NCBI RefSeq assembly: GCF_001975225.1
Contig: NZ_CP019445.1
Location: 1,488,001 to 1,552,000, forward strand
DNA: 64,000 nt
Source of the DNA: Kosakonia cowanii JCM 10956 = DSM 18146
GTDB lineage: Bacteria; Pseudomonadota; Gammaproteobacteria; Enterobacterales; Enterobacteriaceae
Direction of reading: 5' to 3'
Shown in pieces: positions 6,434 through 16,876 of this stretch. The notes under the pieces were generated by a model. The model saw nothing but the letters and a program-made list of their open reading frames with translations. It made no database searches and was not told where the DNA came from. A program made the position numbers and the translations under genes. How positions within the stretch are numbered: position 1 is the first letter of the stretch; every line of letters starts with the position of its first letter.

Positions 6434-6509
6434 GGCCCCTTAGCTCAGTGGTTAGAGCAGGCGACTCATAATCGCTTGGTCGTTGGTTCAAACCCAACAG
6501 GGGCCACCA
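6434..6509 (+). tRNA. ileX: tRNA-Ile, anticodon CAU (lysidine-modified)
   Basis: This is a 76-nt tRNA with acceptor stem GGCCCCT, a D-loop containing AGTGGTTAGAG, anticodon loop CTCATAA, T-loop TTCAAAC and an encoded CCA. The CAU anticodon would read as Met, but the body matches the minor tRNA-Ile2 type, in which TilS converts C34 to lysidine so that it reads AUA. Its place beside mug matches E. coli ileX. The 3' 45 bases are part of the attachment site used by the downstream element. Confidence 0.93.
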
Positions 6510-6514
6510 AATTT
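6465..6514 (+). repeat. attL: 50-bp direct repeat in the 3' half of ileX
   Basis: Bases 6465-6514, from the anticodon stem through CCA plus five bases, are repeated exactly at 10936-10985. The bases on either side differ between the copies. This is the signature of tyrosine-recombinase integration into a tRNA 3' end, where the element restores an intact tRNA gene at the left junction. Confidence 0.93.
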
Positions 6515-6561: not shown

Positions 6562-6695
6562 GTAGACGAAAATGCAAGTGTCCTCTTTTCGTCCCCTCAT
6601 GTTGAGACTTCTATGTGCGAGGACAAAAAAGGTGCCTATATACACCTACCGGATTGAACGTATAGAATCTATCAACACAGGATGGAGAGGGAAGA

Positions 6696-7226
6696 GTGGA
6701 GAAGCTGCAATTATTTTATAATGACCCTTTAGAAGCTGGCTTAGCTTTGTTTGCGGCAGCATTGTTGTCGATATTCGGAGCCTTTATTAAGGACTGGTTG
6801 CTGAAACTATTTAGCGTTTTTTCGAAAGGTATGAAGGCGCGCAGTGTAGCAAGCAAGAAAAGGGTTTTTAAGCAGGCGCGCTTCTTACTGCGTGACCCGG
6901 TTTTACTCTCTTTATTCACATTTAGAGCAGTAAGGTCCAATTTATTATGGGTGACATCAAATATTTTGAGTATTCTGCTGCTTGTATATGCTCAGCAACA
7001 GATCAGTAATTTTAATTTTGATAGCATTACAAGAATGAGTCTTTTTGAGGCTCTTTTTGCCAACGATGCTGAAGTTACAGTGCTTTTCTATTATACGTTC
7101 TTAGGATCTATTACATTTCTTGCTACGTTAACCTCTGGCTATGTCTCCTCTGCAAGAAACCGCATATTGTATAAGGCGTATACTTCACGTCTAAAAAAAT
7201 TAAGAGCCGGGATTGAATTACCCTAG
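6696..7226 (+). CDS. Small integral membrane protein of unknown function
   Basis: The product has 176 residues and I do not recognise its family. The GTG start at 6696 is preceded by a strong GGAGAGGGAAGA ribosome-binding site. Three hydrophobic stretches are visible: around residues 14-32 (AGLALFAAALLSIFGAFI), around 83-100 (LLWVTSNILSILLLVYA) and around 127-145 (VTVLFYYTFLGSITFLATL). A Lys/Arg-rich segment follows the first one (GMKARSVASKKRVFKQAR) and the tail is basic, suggesting cytosolic loops. It is the first gene inside the element, overlaps the convergent gene at 7218 by 9 bp and is likely cargo. The inverted repeat AGGTG-N8-CACCT at 6630-6647 lies in its upstream region. Confidence 0.65.
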   Translation: MEKLQLFYNDPLEAGLALFAAALLSIFGAFIKDWLLKLFSVFSKGMKARSVASKKRVFKQARFLLRDPVLLSLFTFRAVRSNLLWVTSNILSILLLVYAQQQISNFNFDSITRMSLFEALFANDAEVTVLFYYTFLGSITFLATLTSGYVSSARNRILYKAYTSRLKKLRAGIELP

Positions 7227-7526: not shown

Positions 7527-8017
7527 AACATCATATGCGACATTTTTCAGTGATGCCAATCCTGTGTAAAGGAGGCAAACCCGCCATATGCTTGGCCCTG
7601 TGTTGAGTTTAAGTTTTCCTTTAAGCTCATATTAAGATCCATTTAACCGACCGAAAATTAATTTATCTAAATAAAAACAATGATTTATTAAAAATATCAG
7701 ATCCTAATCTGATCCAACTAACTGAAAAAAAGTGAAATTCCTTTCATTCTTTTCAGTTCAGGATTCCCGGCACGCCGTCAGTGGTGGCGCGGGCTGGCAG
7801 GCTGGTTTGTAGAAAAACAAAACTGAAAATTTTTTGTGATCCAAAACTTGCAGGCAGGTGCGGTGTAGTGCCGTTTTTGTCTGCGACACATTTATTTTGT
7901 CGGCGTGCGGCTGCGCCTGCGTAACGGTGCTGGCGAGATCGTTTTAAGGTGTTCTTGATGGCGGGATGATGCTTCATGCGCCCACAGCGCGTTGCGTGGC
8001 GTCTGGCGTGGGGGTAT
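7527..8017. other. AT-rich stretch without a clear gene
   Basis: Bases 7527-7752 are AT-rich and hold a perfect hairpin-type inverted repeat ATCAGAT-CCTA-ATCTGAT at 7696-7713. Bases 7753-8017 keep an open minus frame with a phage-like feel (ending ARATTDGVPGILN), but no start, ribosome-binding site or domain supports a gene. I regard it as degraded phage DNA. Confidence 0.4.
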
Positions 8018-8041
8018 AAAAAAGCCCGCATTGCGCGGGCT
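8018..8041 (-). terminator. Intrinsic terminator of the phage gene relic
   Basis: Reading the minus strand, AGCCCGC, GCAAT, GCGGGCT then TTTTTTAT follows the stop codon at 8046-8048 by only 4 bp. It belongs to the baseplate-like relic and shows that the old 3' end of that gene is preserved. Confidence 0.8.
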
Positions 8042-8045
8042 GGGA

Positions 8046-8592
8046 TCAGGCGATTGTCTTCTGGTATTTGCTGCGGGTCTGCCCCGCCCTGGCAGCCACC
8101 TGCGTAAAAGCGCTCGCACTGGCTGGTGCACCAGTGCCGGGTCACCCGCTGCGATACCTCGGCGCGCTGCTGTTGCAGCTGCTCGTCCGGCTTCACGTCC
8201 GGCAGGCTTGTGCCCTCCGGCACGGTCTGGCGCACAAAGGACTTATCCGGCCTGCCGCCGGTGAAGGCCACCTCTACCAGTGTCCCTTCGAGCGGAAACG
8301 GGAACATGCCCGAATCATTCCCGGCCATTGGCTCGGGCAGCAGCACGGCAGAATAAACCGACGTACCGCTGTCGGGCCTGCCGTCTGCGTTAAGCAGTTG
8401 CACATTGACGGCATAACGTGGCAAGAATGGACCAGCAAACTTATCACTGCTGGCCGGTTCACTCACGGCCATCCCCCGCGCAAATTTTGGTAGGTGGATA
8501 CCGCTGGCCAGCTCCGGGTAATCACTTTCAATCTGCCGCTGTGACGGTGTTTTTTGCAGGGGCGCGCCGCTGGCTTTTTCGCGCGGCACCCT
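8046..8592 (-). pseudogene. Remnant of a phage baseplate/VgrG-like protein gene
   Basis: The frame read from 8589 gives a coherent phage-like protein for about 150 residues (for example FARGMAVSEPASSDKFAGPF, GMFPFPLEGTLVEVAFTGGR, QQQRAEVSQRVT). It then turns into an implausible Arg/Cys-rich sequence. A plausible C-terminus (PASASAFTQVAARAGQTRSK) is found in another frame and ends at a stop directly before the terminator. The simplest reading is a gene truncated at its 5' end and carrying a frameshift or internal deletion near 8140. The OB-fold baseplate/VgrG-like assignment is recalled from similar prophage proteins and is an inference. Confidence 0.5.
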
Positions 8593-8618
8593 AATGCTCG
8601 CTGTGGGGAGGTTGAAAA

Positions 8619-9035
8619 ATGAAACTTAGCCAAATAAGTTCCGGGAAAATCACCTTTATAAAAACCATAGGCAAACGGAATCGCACTATCCCAATCGATA
8701 AGAGTTCGATGGCAAATATTCCCAGTAAGAATGGTGTCTTGTTTACGCCTTGTTATTATGCTTTTAGGAATGCACTTGAGAGAGCGAATATTGAGTTACC
8801 TCTGGGCCAGTTAACTCATGTATTACGTCACATTTTTGCAAGCCACTTCACGATGAATGGAGGCAATATACTAGTCACTCAAAGAATCTTAGGTCATACT
8901 GATATAAAAGTGACAATGAGATATGCTCATTTTGCGCCATCTCATTTAATTGAAGCTGTAACATTCAATCCATTATCCGATTCAGTGAAGAAGGACGTTA
9001 ATGATGAACGATATAAGTTTTCAACAATACCTTGA
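8619..9035 (+). pseudogene. C-terminal stump of a P2-type tyrosine integrase
   Basis: The 138 residues contain the second half of the tyrosine recombinase catalytic domain: HVLRHIFASHF (box with H-x-x-R-H) and RILGHTDIKVTMRYAHFAP with the late histidine and the nucleophilic tyrosine. The arm-binding and core-binding domains and the first catalytic arginine are missing, against roughly 330 residues for the family. The frame is closed by a TGA just before the ATG at 8619, so a deletion joined foreign DNA here. A strong ribosome-binding site (GGGGAGG) precedes that ATG, so the stump may still be translated. Its last 35 bases overlap the start of the KAP NTPase gene. Confidence 0.85.
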
Positions 9036-10833
9036 TTATTATATCAAACAAAACGAACCGAGATATGCTGTTCTAATCACTGGTGACTGGGGAATAGGTA
9101 AAACTTACCAAGTTATGAATGCATTGCCAATGGATCAAGTATGTTATATTAGTTTGTTCGGTTTAAACTCAACAAGCGAAATATATGCAAATGTATTTGC
9201 TGCAATGTACCCCAAAAGGAATGCTTTAAAGAGAACCGTGAATGCTGCTAAAGAGTCAGCGGCAGAATTGAATGGATTTACCCTTGCCGCAGGAACGATC
9301 ATTAGTAGCCTTGCTGATGCCTTCATAAAAGAAGTTGTAGACAATACAAAAATAATAGTTTTTGACGACCTTGAAAGATGTTCAATAAAATTAAAAGACA
9401 TCCTTGGCGCAATTAATAAATATGTAGAACATCACAAATGTCGTGTATTAGTTATAGCGCATGACTCAGAGATAGAATCAGAGTTTTTAGAAACTAAAGA
9501 AAAAATAATTGGTCACACAGTAAAAATTAAACCCCAAATAGATGATGCCGCAGATTCATTTTTTAACGAAACCTATAAATTAAAACATCTAGACCATCTA
9601 AAAAAAATAATAATTAACGCATTCAAGAACACTCAATGTCAGTCATTGCGCATTTTTAGGTATGTGATTAAAGACTGCGAAAGACTAGTAGCAACACTTC
9701 CCTATAGTCAATTACACAACCATGATGCTATGAATGAGGTTTTTAATACATTCTCTATAATGAATACAGCATGTAGGACAGGTATGATTTTTGCAGATGA
9801 GATAAAAAATCTCGACGCAGAGTTTACATCTATATCTTATTCCTTACCAACATCAAAAGGTGGCGAAGAAAATAAAAACCAAGGGGAAGAGCAAGAGCAA
9901 GAACTTAAGGAAAAAAGGTTATTAACTCTTTTTAATAAATTTTCCCAAGAGATTTTTCATGATGGTATATTTGATAATGAACTTATGTATTCAATGCTTA
10001 TTGACGGCATATACCCCAAAAATAGAATAAGAGACAGAATTCAACAGTCAAGATACTTTAGAGTGGAAGCAAAAAAAGAAATTCCAGCGTGGGTAAAAAT
10101 CCAAAGTTTTGACTACACTGATGATAATATTGTTGATAGTGCTGTCGGTGAATTACTTAGTCAATTTGAAAATAGAGAAATAACTGACCTTGGAACGATG
10201 CTACATATGTTTCATTTAATGTTTTTAATGTCGTCTATTAATGTGATTGATGAATGCTTCGAAGAAGTAGTAAATGAATGCAAAGCATATATAGATGATC
10301 TTGTGACTACCAATAATTTGAACTATGAAAATAACATAGGAAATTTTTATAGCATTCATTCCGATTCTGGTGCCCATGGGCATAGTTTTTGGCTAGATGA
10401 GCAGTATAAGAGATTCATTAATGAAGTTAGATTATACCTTGGTCAAAAACAAAAAGAAGCATTGCGCAACAACTATCCTCAATTTGCCAAAGAGATAATG
10501 TATGCTTTAGATAATGATCTTCATAAATTCAACCAACTTCTAATTGGTGATGGTTCAACATGGGGTAAATACTCAGGCATTGACGTCCTTACGATAATTC
10601 CTCCCGATGATTTTGTTCTATCATGGTTATGCCGCCCTTATGAGGAATGGGATAAGGTCAGAAATATACTTATAAACCGATATACGAGGGGGGGGATGTC
10701 TAATTTAGTTAATGAGAAGGAGTGGTTATATGCGGTAGGTGTAACACTTAAACTTGAGGCCATGAAGATGAAAGGTTTTGAAAGAATTAGAATAGAAAGG
10801 CTATTTCCAACACGCGCACTAAGCCAGATATAG
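9001..10833 (+). CDS. KAP-family P-loop NTPase, candidate phage-defence protein
   Basis: This soluble-looking protein has 610 residues. Walker A is GDWGIGKT at 28-35 and Walker B is IIVFDDLE at 118-125; the GxWGxGKT plus FDDLER pair is typical of KAP P-loop NTPases, a STAND-related group that includes the F-plasmid exclusion protein PifA. A Glu/Gln/Lys-rich hydrophilic linker lies near residues 288-310, followed by a long helical C-terminal region that I do not recognise. No membrane segment is evident. The ATG at 9001 (or 9004) lies inside the integrase stump with AAGGA upstream, so translation may be coupled. Base composition is much more AT-rich than the chromosome, a sign of transfer. Position next to a phage integrase suggests cargo with a defence role; that is inference. 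Confidence 0.8.
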   Translation: MMNDISFQQYLDYYIKQNEPRYAVLITGDWGIGKTYQVMNALPMDQVCYISLFGLNSTSEIYANVFAAMYPKRNALKRTVNAAKESAAELNGFTLAAGTIISSLADAFIKEVVDNTKIIVFDDLERCSIKLKDILGAINKYVEHHKCRVLVIAHDSEIESEFLETKEKIIGHTVKIKPQIDDAADSFFNETYKLKHLDHLKKIIINAFKNTQCQSLRIFRYVIKDCERLVATLPYSQLHNHDAMNEVFNTFSIMNTACRTGMIFADEIKNLDAEFTSISYSLPTSKGGEENKNQGEEQEQELKEKRLLTLFNKFSQEIFHDGIFDNELMYSMLIDGIYPKNRIRDRIQQSRYFRVEAKKEIPAWVKIQSFDYTDDNIVDSAVGELLSQFENREITDLGTMLHMFHLMFLMSSINVIDECFEEVVNECKAYIDDLVTTNNLNYENNIGNFYSIHSDSGAHGHSFWLDEQYKRFINEVRLYLGQKQKEALRNNYPQFAKEIMYALDNDLHKFNQLLIGDGSTWGKYSGIDVLTIIPPDDFVLSWLCRPYEEWDKVRNILINRYTRGGMSNLVNEKEWLYAVGVTLKLEAMKMKGFERIRIERLFPTRALSQI

Positions 10834-10891
10834 TGTCGCAACAACTTAAGAGTACTGGCCTTTATTAGGGGATATTGGTTTTATAACTTGC

Positions 10892-10935: not shown

Positions 10936-10985
10936 CTCATAATCGCTTGGTCGTTGGTTCAAACCCAACAGGGGCCACCAAATTT
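10936..10985 (+). repeat. attR: second copy of the ileX 3' repeat
   Basis: This copy is identical over 50 bp to 6465-6514. It holds only the anticodon-to-CCA part of the tRNA, so it is not a functional tRNA gene. It marks the right end of the element; the chromosomal side continues with the original tRNA terminator. Confidence 0.93.
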
Positions 10986-11032: not shown

Positions 11033-11123
11033 GTTTCTTGTTTACCGACTGTCGCAAAAGTGTCGCATGATGTTTTGAGAATTCCTTTTCATAGCCCAGC
11101 GTCTTACTCTGTCTTTCTTTTAC

Positions 11124-11194: not shown

Positions 11195-14100
11195 TTAAGC
11201 GAATTCATCTCCATCGATAATCGCCAGCACCCTGTCCAGATAGGTTTTACTCATCTTGCTTTCCGTTGCCTCACGCAGGTATTTCGGAATACGTTCAACA
11301 AACTCAGAGCGAGAAAGCGGTTGATGCTCGACCAATGCTTCAATCATTGCAGGACGCAGCAACTTGCTCTCATCGGCAATATAGGGACACTCAACATCAA
11401 TGACCTCGCGGGCAAATCTTTCAAGACGTAATCTGAGTGGCTCACTATGGTCGCTAAAATCCGCAATATTGTTACTTGCGGTTTGCCCTTCAACAACCAG
11501 CTGTGCGATAGCGTGCTCTTCAGAGTACTCCTCTTCCGCAACCGTGGTTTTTAACCGATTTAACTCGCGAACGATGGGCTCGAGGATCTCATCAGGATTG
11601 CAGAACCAGTCTGTGGACCAGATACGACGAATTCTCCACCCTAAGCCCTCCAGCACGTCCTGACGCAGGCGATCTCTGTCGCGAGCTGACTTAGCAGAGT
11701 GATAGGTCGCACCATCACACTCAATACCCATCAAATAGCGCCCCTGCTTACCGGGATCGCGCACCGCAATATCAATAAAGAATCCGGCTACGCCAACCTG
11801 GGGTTCACAGCGGAAACCAGCATTCTCCAGCGCTGTAATAACAGAGACTTCGAAATCACTGTCCGGCGCTTTACCCGTGTGGTGTGCAAGCCCGTCCATA
11901 TTGCCTTTTTCTGCAAAGTGCAGAAAGCCACGCAGCGCCTGCACACCGCGCTTAGATGTCTCTGTTACCTGGATATCCTCCGAGCGCATTGAGCTGAACA
12001 CATGCATCCGCTTTTTAGAACGCGTGAAGAGTACGTTCAGGCGACGCCAGCCAACATCGGAGTTGATCGGGCCAAAGCGTTGGTACACTTTGCCATCGAC
12101 CTCGCCCGGCCCATAAGTGAAGGAGATGAAAATAACGTCGCGTTCATCACCCTGAACGTTCTCTAGGTTTTTAATAAACAGCGCATCGCTTTTCATTCTT
12201 AACCGATCAATCGCGGCCTCAGCTTGCGTATCTTCACGGCATATTTCATCAATCGACCGTTCAATCTGTTCACGCTGCTTTGAGTTCATCGCCACGATGC
12301 CTAAGGATTCGTCAGGCGAATTGGTCGCATGTAAAGCCACAGCCCTGGCGATAACGCGCGCTTCTTCAATATTGTGCTGGTTAATGAAGCGACCATTTTT
12401 AACGAAGCTGAACTTAACGCCATACTCCGGGGCATGAGCGTTCGGGGAAGGGAAAACCACCAAATCGCTGTTATAAAAATGGCGATTAGAGTAAGCAATC
12501 AGGCTCTCATGTTGAGAGCGATAGTGCCATCTCAAACGGCGCATTTTGAACAGAGGTAACGAGGCATCCAGAATACTGTCCGTTTGGCTGACCGCGGCCG
12601 TGTCATCATCGTCATCATCAATGCCCGCGCGATCAAAGAAGCTCGTTGGCGGCAGCTGTTTCGGGTCACCCACCACGATAATTTGCTTACCGCGCGCGAT
12701 AACACCCAACGCATCTTCCGGCTTAACCTGTGAGGCTTCATCCATCACCACAAGATCAAACTCGATATCGCCTGGCTGAAGATAATTAGCCGCCGACATT
12801 GGCCCCATCATAAAGCAAGGCTTCAGCTGAAGCAGAGCACGGCCGGCGCGATTAATCAGTTGGCGAATCGGAATATGACGCATCTTCTTACCCGTCTCAT
12901 TCAGGATAAGCGCCATTTCGGTATAGTCGGCTTTTCGTCCTCCTGACGCGCCGGGGGGAACGGGATTGCTCGCAATAACCGCCGCGATGCGCTCACGCTG
13001 CAAGCGCTGTAGCGCCCGGTCATAGTCACGAAACGTTTTTTGCATCGCGCTGCGGCTATTACCAGACACCCGGAGGAGATGCGGACGTTCAGTCGCGATT
13101 TCGCGGGCGAGCTGATCGAAAATAGCGACTTCCAGGCCGGTATCGATATCCTCAATAGTCAGCGTATGGCTCATGATTGCGTCACGAATACGCTGCAGCC
13201 CGCTATTTTCAATATCCTGAGAGATACGAATGAAGTTAAGCCAGCCATTCAGCCAGCGGGGCTTAGCGATCGCCTCTTCGTTGCAGGCGATTAATGCAGA
13301 GAGACGATTTTCACACCGTTGATGCCACTGCTCGCTATTAAGCTGCGTTTCCTGCGCAAAGTGACTCTGACGGTCAGTTTGCAGCTGCCACTTCTGCTGA
13401 AGAGCACGAAGAGAGTGTTGCAGTTCGCGGTACTCATCTGCGCCGGGTAACCGTTGGATGGCCGCAACCAAATCAGCATCCTGAACGTTTTCCCCCATCT
13501 GTTCTGCAAAAGTAAGGGTATTGCCCATGACCTTGAGCGTGTGCGCATTATCTTTATCTGCGCCAAACAGGAGTGAATCCGCCGCTGAAAAAATGGTGCC
13601 GGGCAACCGATCAACAGATAAGCAAGCCTGTCTGTTATGTATCTGACGCAACACGGTTATCTTTTCATTTACCGTATTCAGCGCAAGCTGCTCAGTGCTG
13701 AACCACTGCTGAATGGGCGTCAGTGCAGCGGTCAGTTTCTCAATAAGCGGCAGTAAGATACTCTTTTCGCCCGCAAGGCTTTGCTCACCTTCAGAGTCAA
13801 AGTGTGCTGAAGCGAAGGTTTCCTCGTAGCTTTTTAACTTATCAAGATGTTGAGAAATCTGCGCATCGACACCCTGCTGCTTAAGTTGCTGTATTCCTTT
13901 TAGTATCTGGCTATCCAGCGTCAATAGAGCGCCACCAATGGCAACATTAGCACCGAAGCCGATCCCCCAGACGCTGCGCACTCCGCTGTACCACTCCCGA
14001 ATCTGCCGGAGCTGGCTCGGATCGGTCTCCAGCCCTCGATAGAGCTCGCCGAAGATCTGCTCAAAATTGCGCGCCTCAAACTCATCGCGTTCCTGCACAT

Positions 14101-16876
14101 ACTGGCGGAGGACCGGCAATTCGTCATACAGCGTTTTCCATTTTGCATTAGGCTCGCTGGATAAACCGATCAGCGTATTTTTCGCTTCGCGCCATGAGCC
14201 GCTTAACCAGCTAAACAGGCCCGAGTTGTGCAGGATGTTTTCGATCGTTTTTAGCTGCTCACCATCTGCCACTTTATTCAGCGTAAAGCGCGCCTTGAGC
14301 TGGTCGCGCAGTGCATGCAACGAGACCAGCCGCTGATTGAGATCTTCAATGTGTGGCTCGATATCTTCATCATCAAACCTGTCATGTCTGTATCTCACCA
14401 GTTCGCTCGGCAATTTGGAGGCGACATGAATGAACGTGGCTATTTGCTGCAGGCCCGCAGGCGTTATTGAGAATCTATCAGCAACAGCAGAGGGCAACGA
14501 TTCCAGTAATGGGGCGAGATGCTCTTTGTCAGCAGCAAAGGCAGTTTGCAGTTGCGCTAAACCACGAATCAGGAGAACCACATCCGCAAGCGTTGTTGCC
14601 CCATCCAGACCAAAGATTTTGGTGATATCCGGAAAGTCCGGGACTGGATTTCCCTCTTCGAGGAAACGCAGTTTTTCAGGCATTAAATCGCCTGCTACCT
14701 GATGGTAATCCGCCTGAACGGCACTGAAATCATTTAACCAGCTTTTCAGACTCTCAATGTTGTTGCTATCAAGCCGGGTATAAGCCTGGAAATCGGCTTC
14801 TGCAGGAAGTTCCGGAAGTTGGTCGCACAGCGCTACCAGCTGCGTTTGCCAGCTTAATTCGTCACAATGCGAAGCAGTAATCGAATACCTGGCGAGAAAA
14901 CCTGCAAGTGCCTGCTGCCAGGCAATTAGCGCCTCATTCCACTCCTTAAGCAGTGAAACAACTCTTTCACTGTCGAAAAGCTGGATATCAGTGTTGTTAA
15001 CGCCATACCAGGGGTGCTCCCACAGCTCCGCTTGCTGACCGACCTGCTGACGAAACTCCACGACAACGTCTTTAAACTCTTTGATCTGGTCACGTAGCCT
15101 TAACTGCGCCACGCGATCCAGTTTTTGACCGGACAGGTTTTCTATATGTAGCAGTGTGGGATCGATGCCCAGCTCGCGTCGATAACGCGTCGCGCCGGTC
15201 AAAATTTGGTGAATAGTCAGCCCGGTAAGCTTCCAGCTCTCATTAATTTCCTGAGCGTAGCTGTTTAACTGATTCTTTAAATCTTCATAGCGAGAGATCT
15301 CGGCATCAATTTGCGCCGGCATTTTTTGCAATGCCGGGTTATGCAGCCGTTTTTGGATGTCTTCTAACACCTTACGCTTGTGCGATTTATGGCTGTGCAG
15401 CTCAAGGCAAAAATCACCCAGCCCTGCTTTATCGAGTCGGTGTTTAACAACCTCTAATGCCGCAAGCTTTTCCGCAACAAAAAGCACCTTCTTGCCATTC
15501 AGCATTGCCGCGGCAATCAGGTTGGTAATGGTTTGTGATTTGCCCGTGCCTGGAGGGCCTTCGATAACCAGATTCTCGCCATTTACCGCATCAATCAGTG
15601 CGCTATGTTGTGAGCTATCCGCATCAAAAATAAGCGGAAATTGTTGATGAATATTATCGAGAGTATCAATGTGATATTCGCTGGATAAACTTTCTGAACC
15701 GGAATGTTCTCCCGTCTGCGAAGTAAAAAGACGTTTGATCACCTCATGATTCAGTAAGTTTTTACCGCCCTGTGGCCAGCGCTCTGGATCAAGATCGAGA
15801 TACATCAGCATCTTGCTGAAGTTTAATAAGCTCAATGCCCCATAGCGGCGCACTTTCCAGCGCGGCTTGTTCGTTTCGGTAATCGCCTCTATTTGCTGGA
15901 AATAGGTTTCCGGTAACGTCTCCTCATCCAGCCCAGGTAGTGCAAAACCAAAATCAGCCTGCAATTTCTCCTGCAACGACAGGTTAGGGATAATATCTTC
16001 CCCGGTATAACGCAGGTGGTAGCGATAGAGGCCCGCTTGTGGATCGAGTTTACCTTTTTCCAGCGTTACGGGAACGGTAAAGAGCGGAGCAAGGCGGGGC
16101 TTATCTGAATCATCACTTTCATACCATTCAAGAAAGCCAAGGGACAAATAGAGAATACCCGCACCGGTCTCTTCAATCGCTACCTGTGCTTTACCGTGGA
16201 TAGAGCGCAGTACGGCCTCCAGATCGGCCGGGTAATAAAGCGTCTGTATTTCATTATTCGCTTCAGTCTCCTGCACTAATGGCTTACGCAACGGCTTGCC
16301 CGCTTTCGTATCGCGCTCAAACTCACCAATATCTTTGTAGCCAAGCTGGATAAGTAGGGAATCCAGACGCTCAGCAGGAAGGCCGGATTTAGCCTCCGTA
16401 TTACTGACGCCGGCCAAAGAGCCGCCGTTTTCCTTCAAGTGGATGAGAATAAGATCGCGCGCTTTAACCACCAGTTCATAATCTTCCGGGGAAATAGCAC
16501 TCTGCGCGCCGCTCGGTAATTCATAGTCGGTATTAATGCCCAGCTTACCCGCCCACGTTTTCGCATCGGGCATAGGTTTTGTCGCTTTTTCCTCGGCTGA
16601 AGGCACGTTTTTATCCAGATAACCAAACTGCTGTAACTGCGCTTTGGTTGGATCCGGAACAGGAGCAAACTGCATAACCTGTTCTGATTTGAGGGTTTGA
16701 AAAAGCTGATCGGGTAGCGCGTTGATGATACGCAGCGAAGAGTGTTTTTGATTAATTGGAAAATTTAATAACCTGTTTCGCGAGGTCAAATCCAACAATT
16801 TGCGCCGCATATCCTCAAGCGACTTGAGAATATATTCTTTGGATTCACCATCGAGTGAAGAAGAGTATTCCGCCAT
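11195..16876 (-). CDS. DUF4011 / superfamily 1 helicase / Vsr-like nuclease / DUF3320 protein
   Basis: The protein has 1893 residues in one uninterrupted frame. The N-terminus (MRRKLLDLTSRNRLLNF near 23-39) is the DUF4011 signature. Walker A GPPGTGKS is at 440-447. The other SF1 helicase motifs lie late: VVMDEASQ and VGDPKQLPPTSFF near 1370-1390, HYRSQHESL near 1450, VQGDERDVIFISF near 1575 and VLFTRSKKRMHVF near 1610. A nuclease domain of the Vsr/MTES_1575 PD-(D/E)XK type follows (FFIDIAV, GIECDGATYH near 1720) and DUF3320 closes the protein. About 900 residues between the helicase halves are helical and coiled-coil-like. From memory, this architecture was reported as a single-gene phage-defence system (Hhe, Gao et al. 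2020). It sits 210 bp beyond attR, so it is accessory DNA at the same hotspot but outside the 50-bp repeats. Confidence 0.85.
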   Translation of the reverse strand: MAEYSSSLDGESKEYILKSLEDMRRKLLDLTSRNRLLNFPINQKHSSLRIINALPDQLFQTLKSEQVMQFAPVPDPTKAQLQQFGYLDKNVPSAEEKATKPMPDAKTWAGKLGINTDYELPSGAQSAISPEDYELVVKARDLILIHLKENGGSLAGVSNTEAKSGLPAERLDSLLIQLGYKDIGEFERDTKAGKPLRKPLVQETEANNEIQTLYYPADLEAVLRSIHGKAQVAIEETGAGILYLSLGFLEWYESDDSDKPRLAPLFTVPVTLEKGKLDPQAGLYRYHLRYTGEDIIPNLSLQEKLQADFGFALPGLDEETLPETYFQQIEAITETNKPRWKVRRYGALSLLNFSKMLMYLDLDPERWPQGGKNLLNHEVIKRLFTSQTGEHSGSESLSSEYHIDTLDNIHQQFPLIFDADSSQHSALIDAVNGENLVIEGPPGTGKSQTITNLIAAAMLNGKKVLFVAEKLAALEVVKHRLDKAGLGDFCLELHSHKSHKRKVLEDIQKRLHNPALQKMPAQIDAEISRYEDLKNQLNSYAQEINESWKLTGLTIHQILTGATRYRRELGIDPTLLHIENLSGQKLDRVAQLRLRDQIKEFKDVVVEFRQQVGQQAELWEHPWYGVNNTDIQLFDSERVVSLLKEWNEALIAWQQALAGFLARYSITASHCDELSWQTQLVALCDQLPELPAEADFQAYTRLDSNNIESLKSWLNDFSAVQADYHQVAGDLMPEKLRFLEEGNPVPDFPDITKIFGLDGATTLADVVLLIRGLAQLQTAFAADKEHLAPLLESLPSAVADRFSITPAGLQQIATFIHVASKLPSELVRYRHDRFDDEDIEPHIEDLNQRLVSLHALRDQLKARFTLNKVADGEQLKTIENILHNSGLFSWLSGSWREAKNTLIGLSSEPNAKWKTLYDELPVLRQYVQERDEFEARNFEQIFGELYRGLETDPSQLRQIREWYSGVRSVWGIGFGANVAIGGALLTLDSQILKGIQQLKQQGVDAQISQHLDKLKSYEETFASAHFDSEGEQSLAGEKSILLPLIEKLTAALTPIQQWFSTEQLALNTVNEKITVLRQIHNRQACLSVDRLPGTIFSAADSLLFGADKDNAHTLKVMGNTLTFAEQMGENVQDADLVAAIQRLPGADEYRELQHSLRALQQKWQLQTDRQSHFAQETQLNSEQWHQRCENRLSALIACNEEAIAKPRWLNGWLNFIRISQDIENSGLQRIRDAIMSHTLTIEDIDTGLEVAIFDQLAREIATERPHLLRVSGNSRSAMQKTFRDYDRALQRLQRERIAAVIASNPVPPGASGGRKADYTEMALILNETGKKMRHIPIRQLINRAGRALLQLKPCFMMGPMSAANYLQPGDIEFDLVVMDEASQVKPEDALGVIARGKQIIVVGDPKQLPPTSFFDRAGIDDDDDDTAAVSQTDSILDASLPLFKMRRLRWHYRSQHESLIAYSNRHFYNSDLVVFPSPNAHAPEYGVKFSFVKNGRFINQHNIEEARVIARAVALHATNSPDESLGIVAMNSKQREQIERSIDEICREDTQAEAAIDRLRMKSDALFIKNLENVQGDERDVIFISFTYGPGEVDGKVYQRFGPINSDVGWRRLNVLFTRSKKRMHVFSSMRSEDIQVTETSKRGVQALRGFLHFAEKGNMDGLAHHTGKAPDSDFEVSVITALENAGFRCEPQVGVAGFFIDIAVRDPGKQGRYLMGIECDGATYHSAKSARDRDRLRQDVLEGLGWRIRRIWSTDWFCNPDEILEPIVRELNRLKTTVAEEEYSEEHAIAQLVVEGQTASNNIADFSDHSEPLRLRLERFAREVIDVECPYIADESKLLRPAMIEALVEHQPLSRSEFVERIPKYLREATESKMSKTYLDRVLAIIDGDEFA

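Follow-up and report, generated by a model that had tools for sequence, protein, structure and literature searches.

A PDC-S49 KAP-type NTPase gene as likely defence cargo in a decayed 186-type prophage of Kosakonia cowanii

We studied a gene for a KAP-type P-loop NTPase, located at 9001..10833 on the + strand of a 64,000-nucleotide stretch of Kosakonia cowanii DNA (contig NZ_CP019445.1, positions 1,488,001 to 1,552,000), which is called the window below. The gene is a further member of the candidate defence family PDC-S49; PDC stands for "phage defence candidate" (PMC11514479). It is likely that the gene is phage-borne, single-gene defence cargo (a "moron") that is expressed lysogenically and was left intact when its prophage decayed. 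The home of such genes appears to be prophages of the phage 186 type, in which they lie between the stop codon of the integrase gene (int) and an arm-type site of the phage attachment site (attP), often overlapping the int stop codon. This place closes the lysogenic operon of pL, cI and int, so a silent prophage would still produce the protein, and the lysogen would be protected against other phages. In the window, the rest of the prophage has decayed, leaving the cargo intact beside a second defence gene, Hhe.

The NTPase and its family

The protein has 610 amino acids (aa) counted from the ATG at 9001, and an alternative ATG at 9004 yields the 609-aa form present in the database. A preliminary description of this DNA, made without database searches, had called the product a KAP-type NTPase on account of its Walker A (GDWGIGKT) and Walker B (FDDLER) motifs. 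The profile search agrees: the score for KAP_NTPase (PF07693), 29.1 bits (E 7.8e-7), exceeds the cut-off of 20, with a best stretch of residues 11-36 only. The same profile matched 33 of the 34 members of a family alignment (A1). In A1, the Walker B pattern FDD.ER does not vary, nor do SLF (50-52), AHD (152-154) and SLR (214-216), and the Walker A residues are almost invariant. The PADLOC profile PDC-S49 covers residues 6-602 of 610 (2.5e-122), and PHROG 4740 matched residues 7-601 (5.3e-99). No other PADLOC model matched the protein at E<=0.1.

The N-terminal part (about residues 1-260) would be an AAA+-like NTPase switch. The C-terminal part (about 262-609) is predicted to be all-helical save for two short bridges, which bears out the long helical half noted earlier. 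It most likely senses a component of the invading phage and/or blocks or poisons after NTP-driven assembly. Restriction of phages, perhaps by abortive infection upon such a trigger, would be the outcome, as far as the sequence can suggest.

Transmembrane helices between Walker A and B are typical of many KAP proteins, though not of all. The best 19-residue Kyte-Doolittle mean of the protein in the window lies in this interval (residues 94-112), where such a helix would be expected, and is weak at 1.36; a strong membrane segment is absent, in line with the earlier description. The highest value in the same interval across the 34 A1 members is 1.66, and a hydrophobic window reaches 1.6 in 7 of the 120 listed relatives (P0001 included). 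RADAR and Qat are two-gene KAP systems. No conserved partner gene of this kind stands beside the NTPase in the window, where 102 nucleotides (nt) separate its stop codon from the right attachment site (attR) and an integrase stump lies upstream. The AT-richness remarked on earlier is pronounced: the G+C content of the gene is 33.9%, compared with 56.1% for positions 20000-64000, and the lowest value among 1167 equally long segments clear of the gene is 44%.

A slot between integrase and attachment site

Searching viral contigs with a KAP profile yielded 69 loci. Positions relative to int were counted over 175 loci plus the window, using KAP open reading frames (ORFs) of at least 250 bits and at least 300 aa. 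ORFs with identical last 250 residues were merged and near-identical ones kept separate, which gave 53 distinct ORFs; slot, cI-like and holin/Q labels were read from ORF starts and motifs. A 186-type integrase gene lies at most 1.5 kb upstream on the same strand in 24 of the 53, and in 19 of the 53 the KAP gene starts at most 40 nt from the stop codon of such an integrase gene, with several stop/start overlaps. Since KAP relatives directly follow full-length integrases, decay does not account for the position of the gene next to an integrase.

At the other end, KAP genes in this slot terminate at or close to an attP arm site. The arm sequence TGTCGCAAAAGTGTCGC occurs downstream of int in 25 of 98 loci inspected; many contigs end at int. 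Three of the 25 have no match to the attachment site (att), and three repeat listed loci (L201, L121 and L098), which leaves 19 distinct loci with both sites. The distance from arm to att core is 133 nt in 17 of these, for KAP and unrelated cargo alike. In L140 the distance is 134 nt, and in L156 the arm lies on the opposite side. Six loci stand out (L009, L016, L030, L032, L114 and L116), because their cargo stop codon touches the arm site (0 nt). The gene in the window occupies the same place, reaching from the int stop to an arm site that lies 133 nt, less a deletion described below, before the att core.

An ORF start that resembles 186 CI by eye lies upstream of int in 17 of 18 loci. The remaining locus, L002, has no CI-like ORF in its short contig, and one in a longer stretch of that genome. 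The record of phage 186 itself lists pL, cI, int, orf69, the arm sites and attP in this order, followed by a predicted terminator of the lysogenic operon; the slot, which holds orf69, is part of that operon.

The slot was also approached from the integrase side, with a profile (A2) for which KAP-carrying loci supplied 12 integrases. Of the 594 loci it gave, the best 80 were kept, and 46 have at least 500 nt after int. An ORF of at least 150 aa on the same strand starts between -60 and +40 nt from int in 21 of the 46 (KAP in seven), compared with an opposite-strand ORF in the same interval in 2 of the 46 (sign test 6.6e-5, with near-copies unmerged). We found no paper on a defence slot between int and attP in the literature searched, which leaves out most subscription papers. 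A slot behind int in the lysogenic operon that is bounded by an arm site and has exchangeable tenants may be new to specialists.

Other genes in the slot

Several unrelated genes lie between int and att. We found ShosTA (ShosA/ShosT) in L164, a protein with a putAbiC domain in L124 and a NOV_C protein in L144. Two loci at the same tRNA and in the same genus as the window have an OLD/AriA-like AAA_15 gene (L196) and an HNH gene (L195) in the slot. A family of proteins of about 240-270 aa directly follows int in L105, L114, L115, L116, L194 and L207 (29-51% identity). Its members in L105, L114 and L194 gave no match in either Pfam or PADLOC. Ten coupled non-KAP genes were scanned, and three had a PADLOC match at 0.01 (those of L124, L144 and, weakly, L156). 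L152, which carries PDC-M18A, was considered as a further case and dropped, because the att core precedes that gene.

We read the tRNA site of the window in nine of 14 genus-mates (all except G004, G006, G007, G008 and G010, and G014 without its right end). Three prophages there have three different last genes: a member of the family of about 240-270 aa (G005), an HNH gene (G001) and an AAA_15 gene akin to AriA/Old models (G003). G002 and G012 have no prophage in the stretch read, and the site is occupied in G014. In Yersinia phage vB_YenM_31.17, a PARIS-like AriA/AriB pair lies between cI and int (L206, 732-2881) and an HNH/SAVED-effector-like gene follows int. Phage 56.17 has a 483-aa gene after int, with a marginal match only. 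As a separate observation, a 186-type prophage of the same genus as the window (L194, 4209-7825) carries Lamassu-like LmuA and LmuB genes between gpA-like and portal genes.

Distribution and evolution of relatives

Of 7996 candidates scored in the protein search, 484 reached E<=0.001. Among the best 120 of these, the protein of the window itself excepted, identity ranges from 70% (Citrobacter freundii) down to about 32%. Within the host family, 8 of 392 genomes match at E<=1e-30, counting the genome of the window, so the gene is accessory and not a housekeeping gene, in support of the preliminary description. Six of the eight were assigned a context (all except G337 and G045, at 181-186 bits). 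Members lie in slots of 186/P2-type prophages in the relic of the window, G431, G079, G429 and G350 (broken), and outside such a slot in G446.

A full PADLOC match to PDC-S49 was also obtained for L031 (int slot), L039 (holin-Q region), L056 (gpA-portal slot) and L014 (plasmid). The allele of L056, which recurs in G429, lies between gpA-like and portal genes. In L063, a portal gene flanks the KAP gene on one side and a different large ORF flanks it on the other. In nine Pseudomonas-type prophage loci, the KAP gene adjoins a gene with an EYLLEQWG motif, which we take to be a Q-like antiterminator. Distant KAP relatives stand next to Septu PtuA/PtuB (L214, 9296-11211) and SIR2-HerA genes (L212, 4618-7553). 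Mapped onto a 40-member tree, the int-slot label requires two changes and the holin-Q label one; therefore, context follows clade, with few jumps from slot to slot.

Integrases and KAP proteins were compared in 18 of the 24 int-slot loci (the window and L030 have int stumps, L020 is broken, L057 and L062 have short KAP frames, and L151 was also left out). Over the 153 pairs, median identity is 81% for the integrase and 36% for KAP, and KAP is less than 45% identical in 23 of the 46 pairs with integrases at least 85% identical. The rank correlation between the two is 0.14 and not significant (p 0.09; the pairs are non-independent). Integrase and KAP are thus decoupled, as far as identity tells. 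The ratio of nonsynonymous to synonymous substitution rates (dN/dS) is 0.08, 0.19 and 0.28 in the three pairs with dS<1; therefore, the protein is maintained in phages. The comparison of the window with L030 also gave 0.08, with dS saturated.

Two other elements, which sit at the same kind of tRNA as the one in the window, are eroded, yet their KAP frame is still open. L030 has 2.3 kb between its att cores and an int stub of 60 aa, and L046 spans 7.1 kb with a split int frame. The protein P0034 (735 aa) is a natural in-frame fusion of a C-terminal integrase stump and KAP, and a broken copy of the family occurs in L020/L203. Internal deletions would tend to spare KAP because it stands at the prophage end, and its retention in eroded elements is suggestive of selection, not proof of it.

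The prophage relic in the window

The relic is 4.5 kb long and is bounded by exact 50-bp copies of the 3′ half of a tRNA gene that are 4471 nt apart, namely attL (6465..6514, + strand) and attR (10936..10985, + strand). It had thus been correctly described as tRNA-borne. The tRNA (6434..6509, + strand) has a CAU anticodon and is tRNA-Met(cat) according to ARAGORN. Matches to the tRNA part in E. coli carry a tRNA-Ile annotation, and the phage 186 record places attB in ileY. The target is therefore most likely the gene for tRNA-Ile2(CAU), corresponding to the ileY site that phage 186 uses.

The integrase stump directly upstream of the KAP gene (8619..9035, + strand) encodes 138 aa of the C-terminal catalytic part of a tyrosine integrase of the 186 type (PF00589, 6.2e-11), and its stop codon overlaps the KAP start by 35 nt. 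Full-length integrases beside KAP relatives are of the 186 type (the one in L031 is 61.7% identical to 186 Int); therefore, the element in the window is a decayed 186-type prophage. This agrees with the earlier idea of cargo in a P2-like phage element. A fragment of a P2-type baseplate gene (7753..8589, - strand; phrog_2258 5.1e-69, phrog_4011 1.2e-38) is a remnant of the late region; PF04717 scored 0.0067 on it, below its cut-off. Near attL, a 176-aa ORF with a hydrophobic stretch (6696..7226, + strand, 39% G+C) gave no Pfam match above cut-off and none in PADLOC, NCBIfam or PHROGs. It is possibly a second cargo gene.

The KAP stop codon abuts the remaining half of an arm site (10834..10841, + strand). 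Alignment with L016 and L030 shows that an 11-nt deletion removed the other half, and the distance to att is accordingly 122 nt. An intact arm-type site (11050..11066, + strand) lies on the far side of attR, 94 nt past its core, and probably marks the border of another prophage in tandem. Because its spacing is that of the left end of L030, while the counterpart position at attL (6578-6594) carries a different arm-like sequence, it seems that prophages lay in tandem at this tRNA and underwent a joint, composite decay.

Outside attR and 361 nt from the KAP gene lies the anti-phage gene Hhe (11195..16876, - strand; DUF4011, helicase and MTES_1575 nuclease), recognized by the PADLOC model Hhe, PF13195, PF18741 and the NCBIfam anti-phage equivalog NF042953 (2764.1 bits against a cut-off of 2000). 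An Hhe-like ORF (834 bits) is also found past the second att site in the genus-mate locus L192. The earlier proposal of a candidate defence gene gains from the PDC-S49 match and from the proximity of Hhe. Overall, the preliminary description was right on anatomy, and its interpretation is partly supported.

Alternative explanations

The NTPase could be an accessory factor of the integrase, that is, an AAA+-like ATPase with a helping or regulatory part in site-specific recombination, comparable to that of TnsC or MuB in transposition. This is very unlikely, given that some members lack an adjacent integrase and lie beside gpA and portal genes or in the holin-Q region, that unrelated genes occupy the same slot (with none in L137, whose int is frameshifted), that KAP diverges independently of the integrase and that phage 186 carries orf69 in that place. 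It is conceivable, if quite unlikely, that KAP is a lysogeny or superinfection gene directed mainly at related P2-family phages or P4-like satellites, and not a broad defence. Its place in the lysogenic operon beside cI would fit, and the fast turnover of alleles would suit conflict among close relatives. However, members of the family are also found on plasmids and in Pseudomonas-type prophages, whose architecture differs, and distant ones stand next to SIR2-HerA and Septu genes.

The copy in the window could also be a silent relic, in other words former cargo that went unexpressed after loss of the lysogenic promoter and is intact only because the decay is recent. In the window, cI and pL are gone, a loss that also speaks against lysogenic expression of this copy; moreover, int is down to 138 aa, one arm half-site is deleted, and a broken family member exists elsewhere. 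A promoter scan gave no promoter-like site on the + strand in 8500-9000, but the scan is weak evidence (it gave 9 sites, compared with 10.0 in shuffles). Against silence, the 610-aa frame is open and its motifs are intact, and the eroded elements L030 and L046 also keep open KAP frames. We regard a silent relic as rather unlikely.

Further observations weigh against cargo expressed for defence, or against a general slot. The viral contigs are prophage-biased by choice, and A2 derives from KAP loci, which biases the KAP share of the slot upwards. A coupled ORF of at least 150 aa is absent in 25 of the 46 integrase loci, and the elements at the same tRNA in G009, G011 and G013 lack a 186-type int-cargo end. 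Seven of the ten scanned non-KAP coupled genes gave no PADLOC match at 0.01, and one match was merely weak. Among ten scanned neighbours of other family members, five matched PADLOC and five did not. The member in G446 (L210) lies outside any recognizable prophage slot. The C-terminal part of the protein gave no confident structural match. PDC-S49 is a candidate label whose name we found in no paper of the literature searched, and we know of no phenotype for any member of the family.

Phage-borne defence cargo nevertheless remains our preferred explanation. With it, what was only a candidate label becomes open to testing, since a single gene lies in a defined lysogenic operon and natural relatives that have similar integrases with other cargo can serve as controls. 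A broader reading is possible and is offered tentatively. The stretch from int to the attP arm may be a modular defence slot of 186-type prophages, apart from the gpA-portal, fun and cI-int hotspots, in which cargo coupled to int would be made together with the CI repressor. PDC-S49 would then be a frequent tenant, an NTPase that acts alone as sensor and effector and whose helical effector part has not been seen before. Decay would lead to minimal "KAP plus att" elements, such as L030 with 2.3 kb and both arm sites intact, that the integrase of a related phage might still move. If the slot is a general one for cargo, reading it in many genomes would yield more single-gene defence candidates, and several of its occupants matched no family in the libraries tried.

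Comparison with known systems

The match of the protein in the window to the PDC-S49 profile is full-length, and we found no difference from that family. The match to PHROG 4740, which has no recorded function, is near full-length.

Kinship with PifA had been suggested earlier. We compared the protein with the F-plasmid NTPase beside pifC, which is recorded as "P-loop NTPase fold protein" and which we take to be PifA. The two have Walker A and B motifs of similar type. PifA is plasmid-borne with pifC and has 741 aa, compared with 610 aa here, and homology beyond the P-loop region was not found (BLASTP E 0.30). An hhalign comparison covers no more than 70 columns, all of them around Walker A, with a probability of 40% (E 3e-4), so the likeness is confined to that region. 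The lack of membrane segments, previously held to separate the protein from transmembrane KAP proteins, does not distinguish it from PifA, because neither protein has a strong segment (best hydrophobic windows of 1.27 in PifA and 1.36 here).

In phage 186, orf69 has the same place as the gene in the window, downstream of int and upstream of the arm sites and of attP, with ileY as the integration site. That slot holds the repetitive Orf69 of 83 aa and no NTPase. Two studies describe the gpA-portal (tin/old) position as a defence hotspot of P2 prophages (Rousset et al. 2022, PMC9122126; Vassallo et al. 2022, PMC9519451), and Rousset et al. report a further hotspot in Vibrio between cI and int. 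The slot of the gene in the window lies between int and attP, unlike the gpA-portal hotspot. Nonetheless, both belong to P2-family prophages and hold exchangeable cargo, and the PDC-S49 allele shared by L056 and G429 sits at the gpA-portal position.
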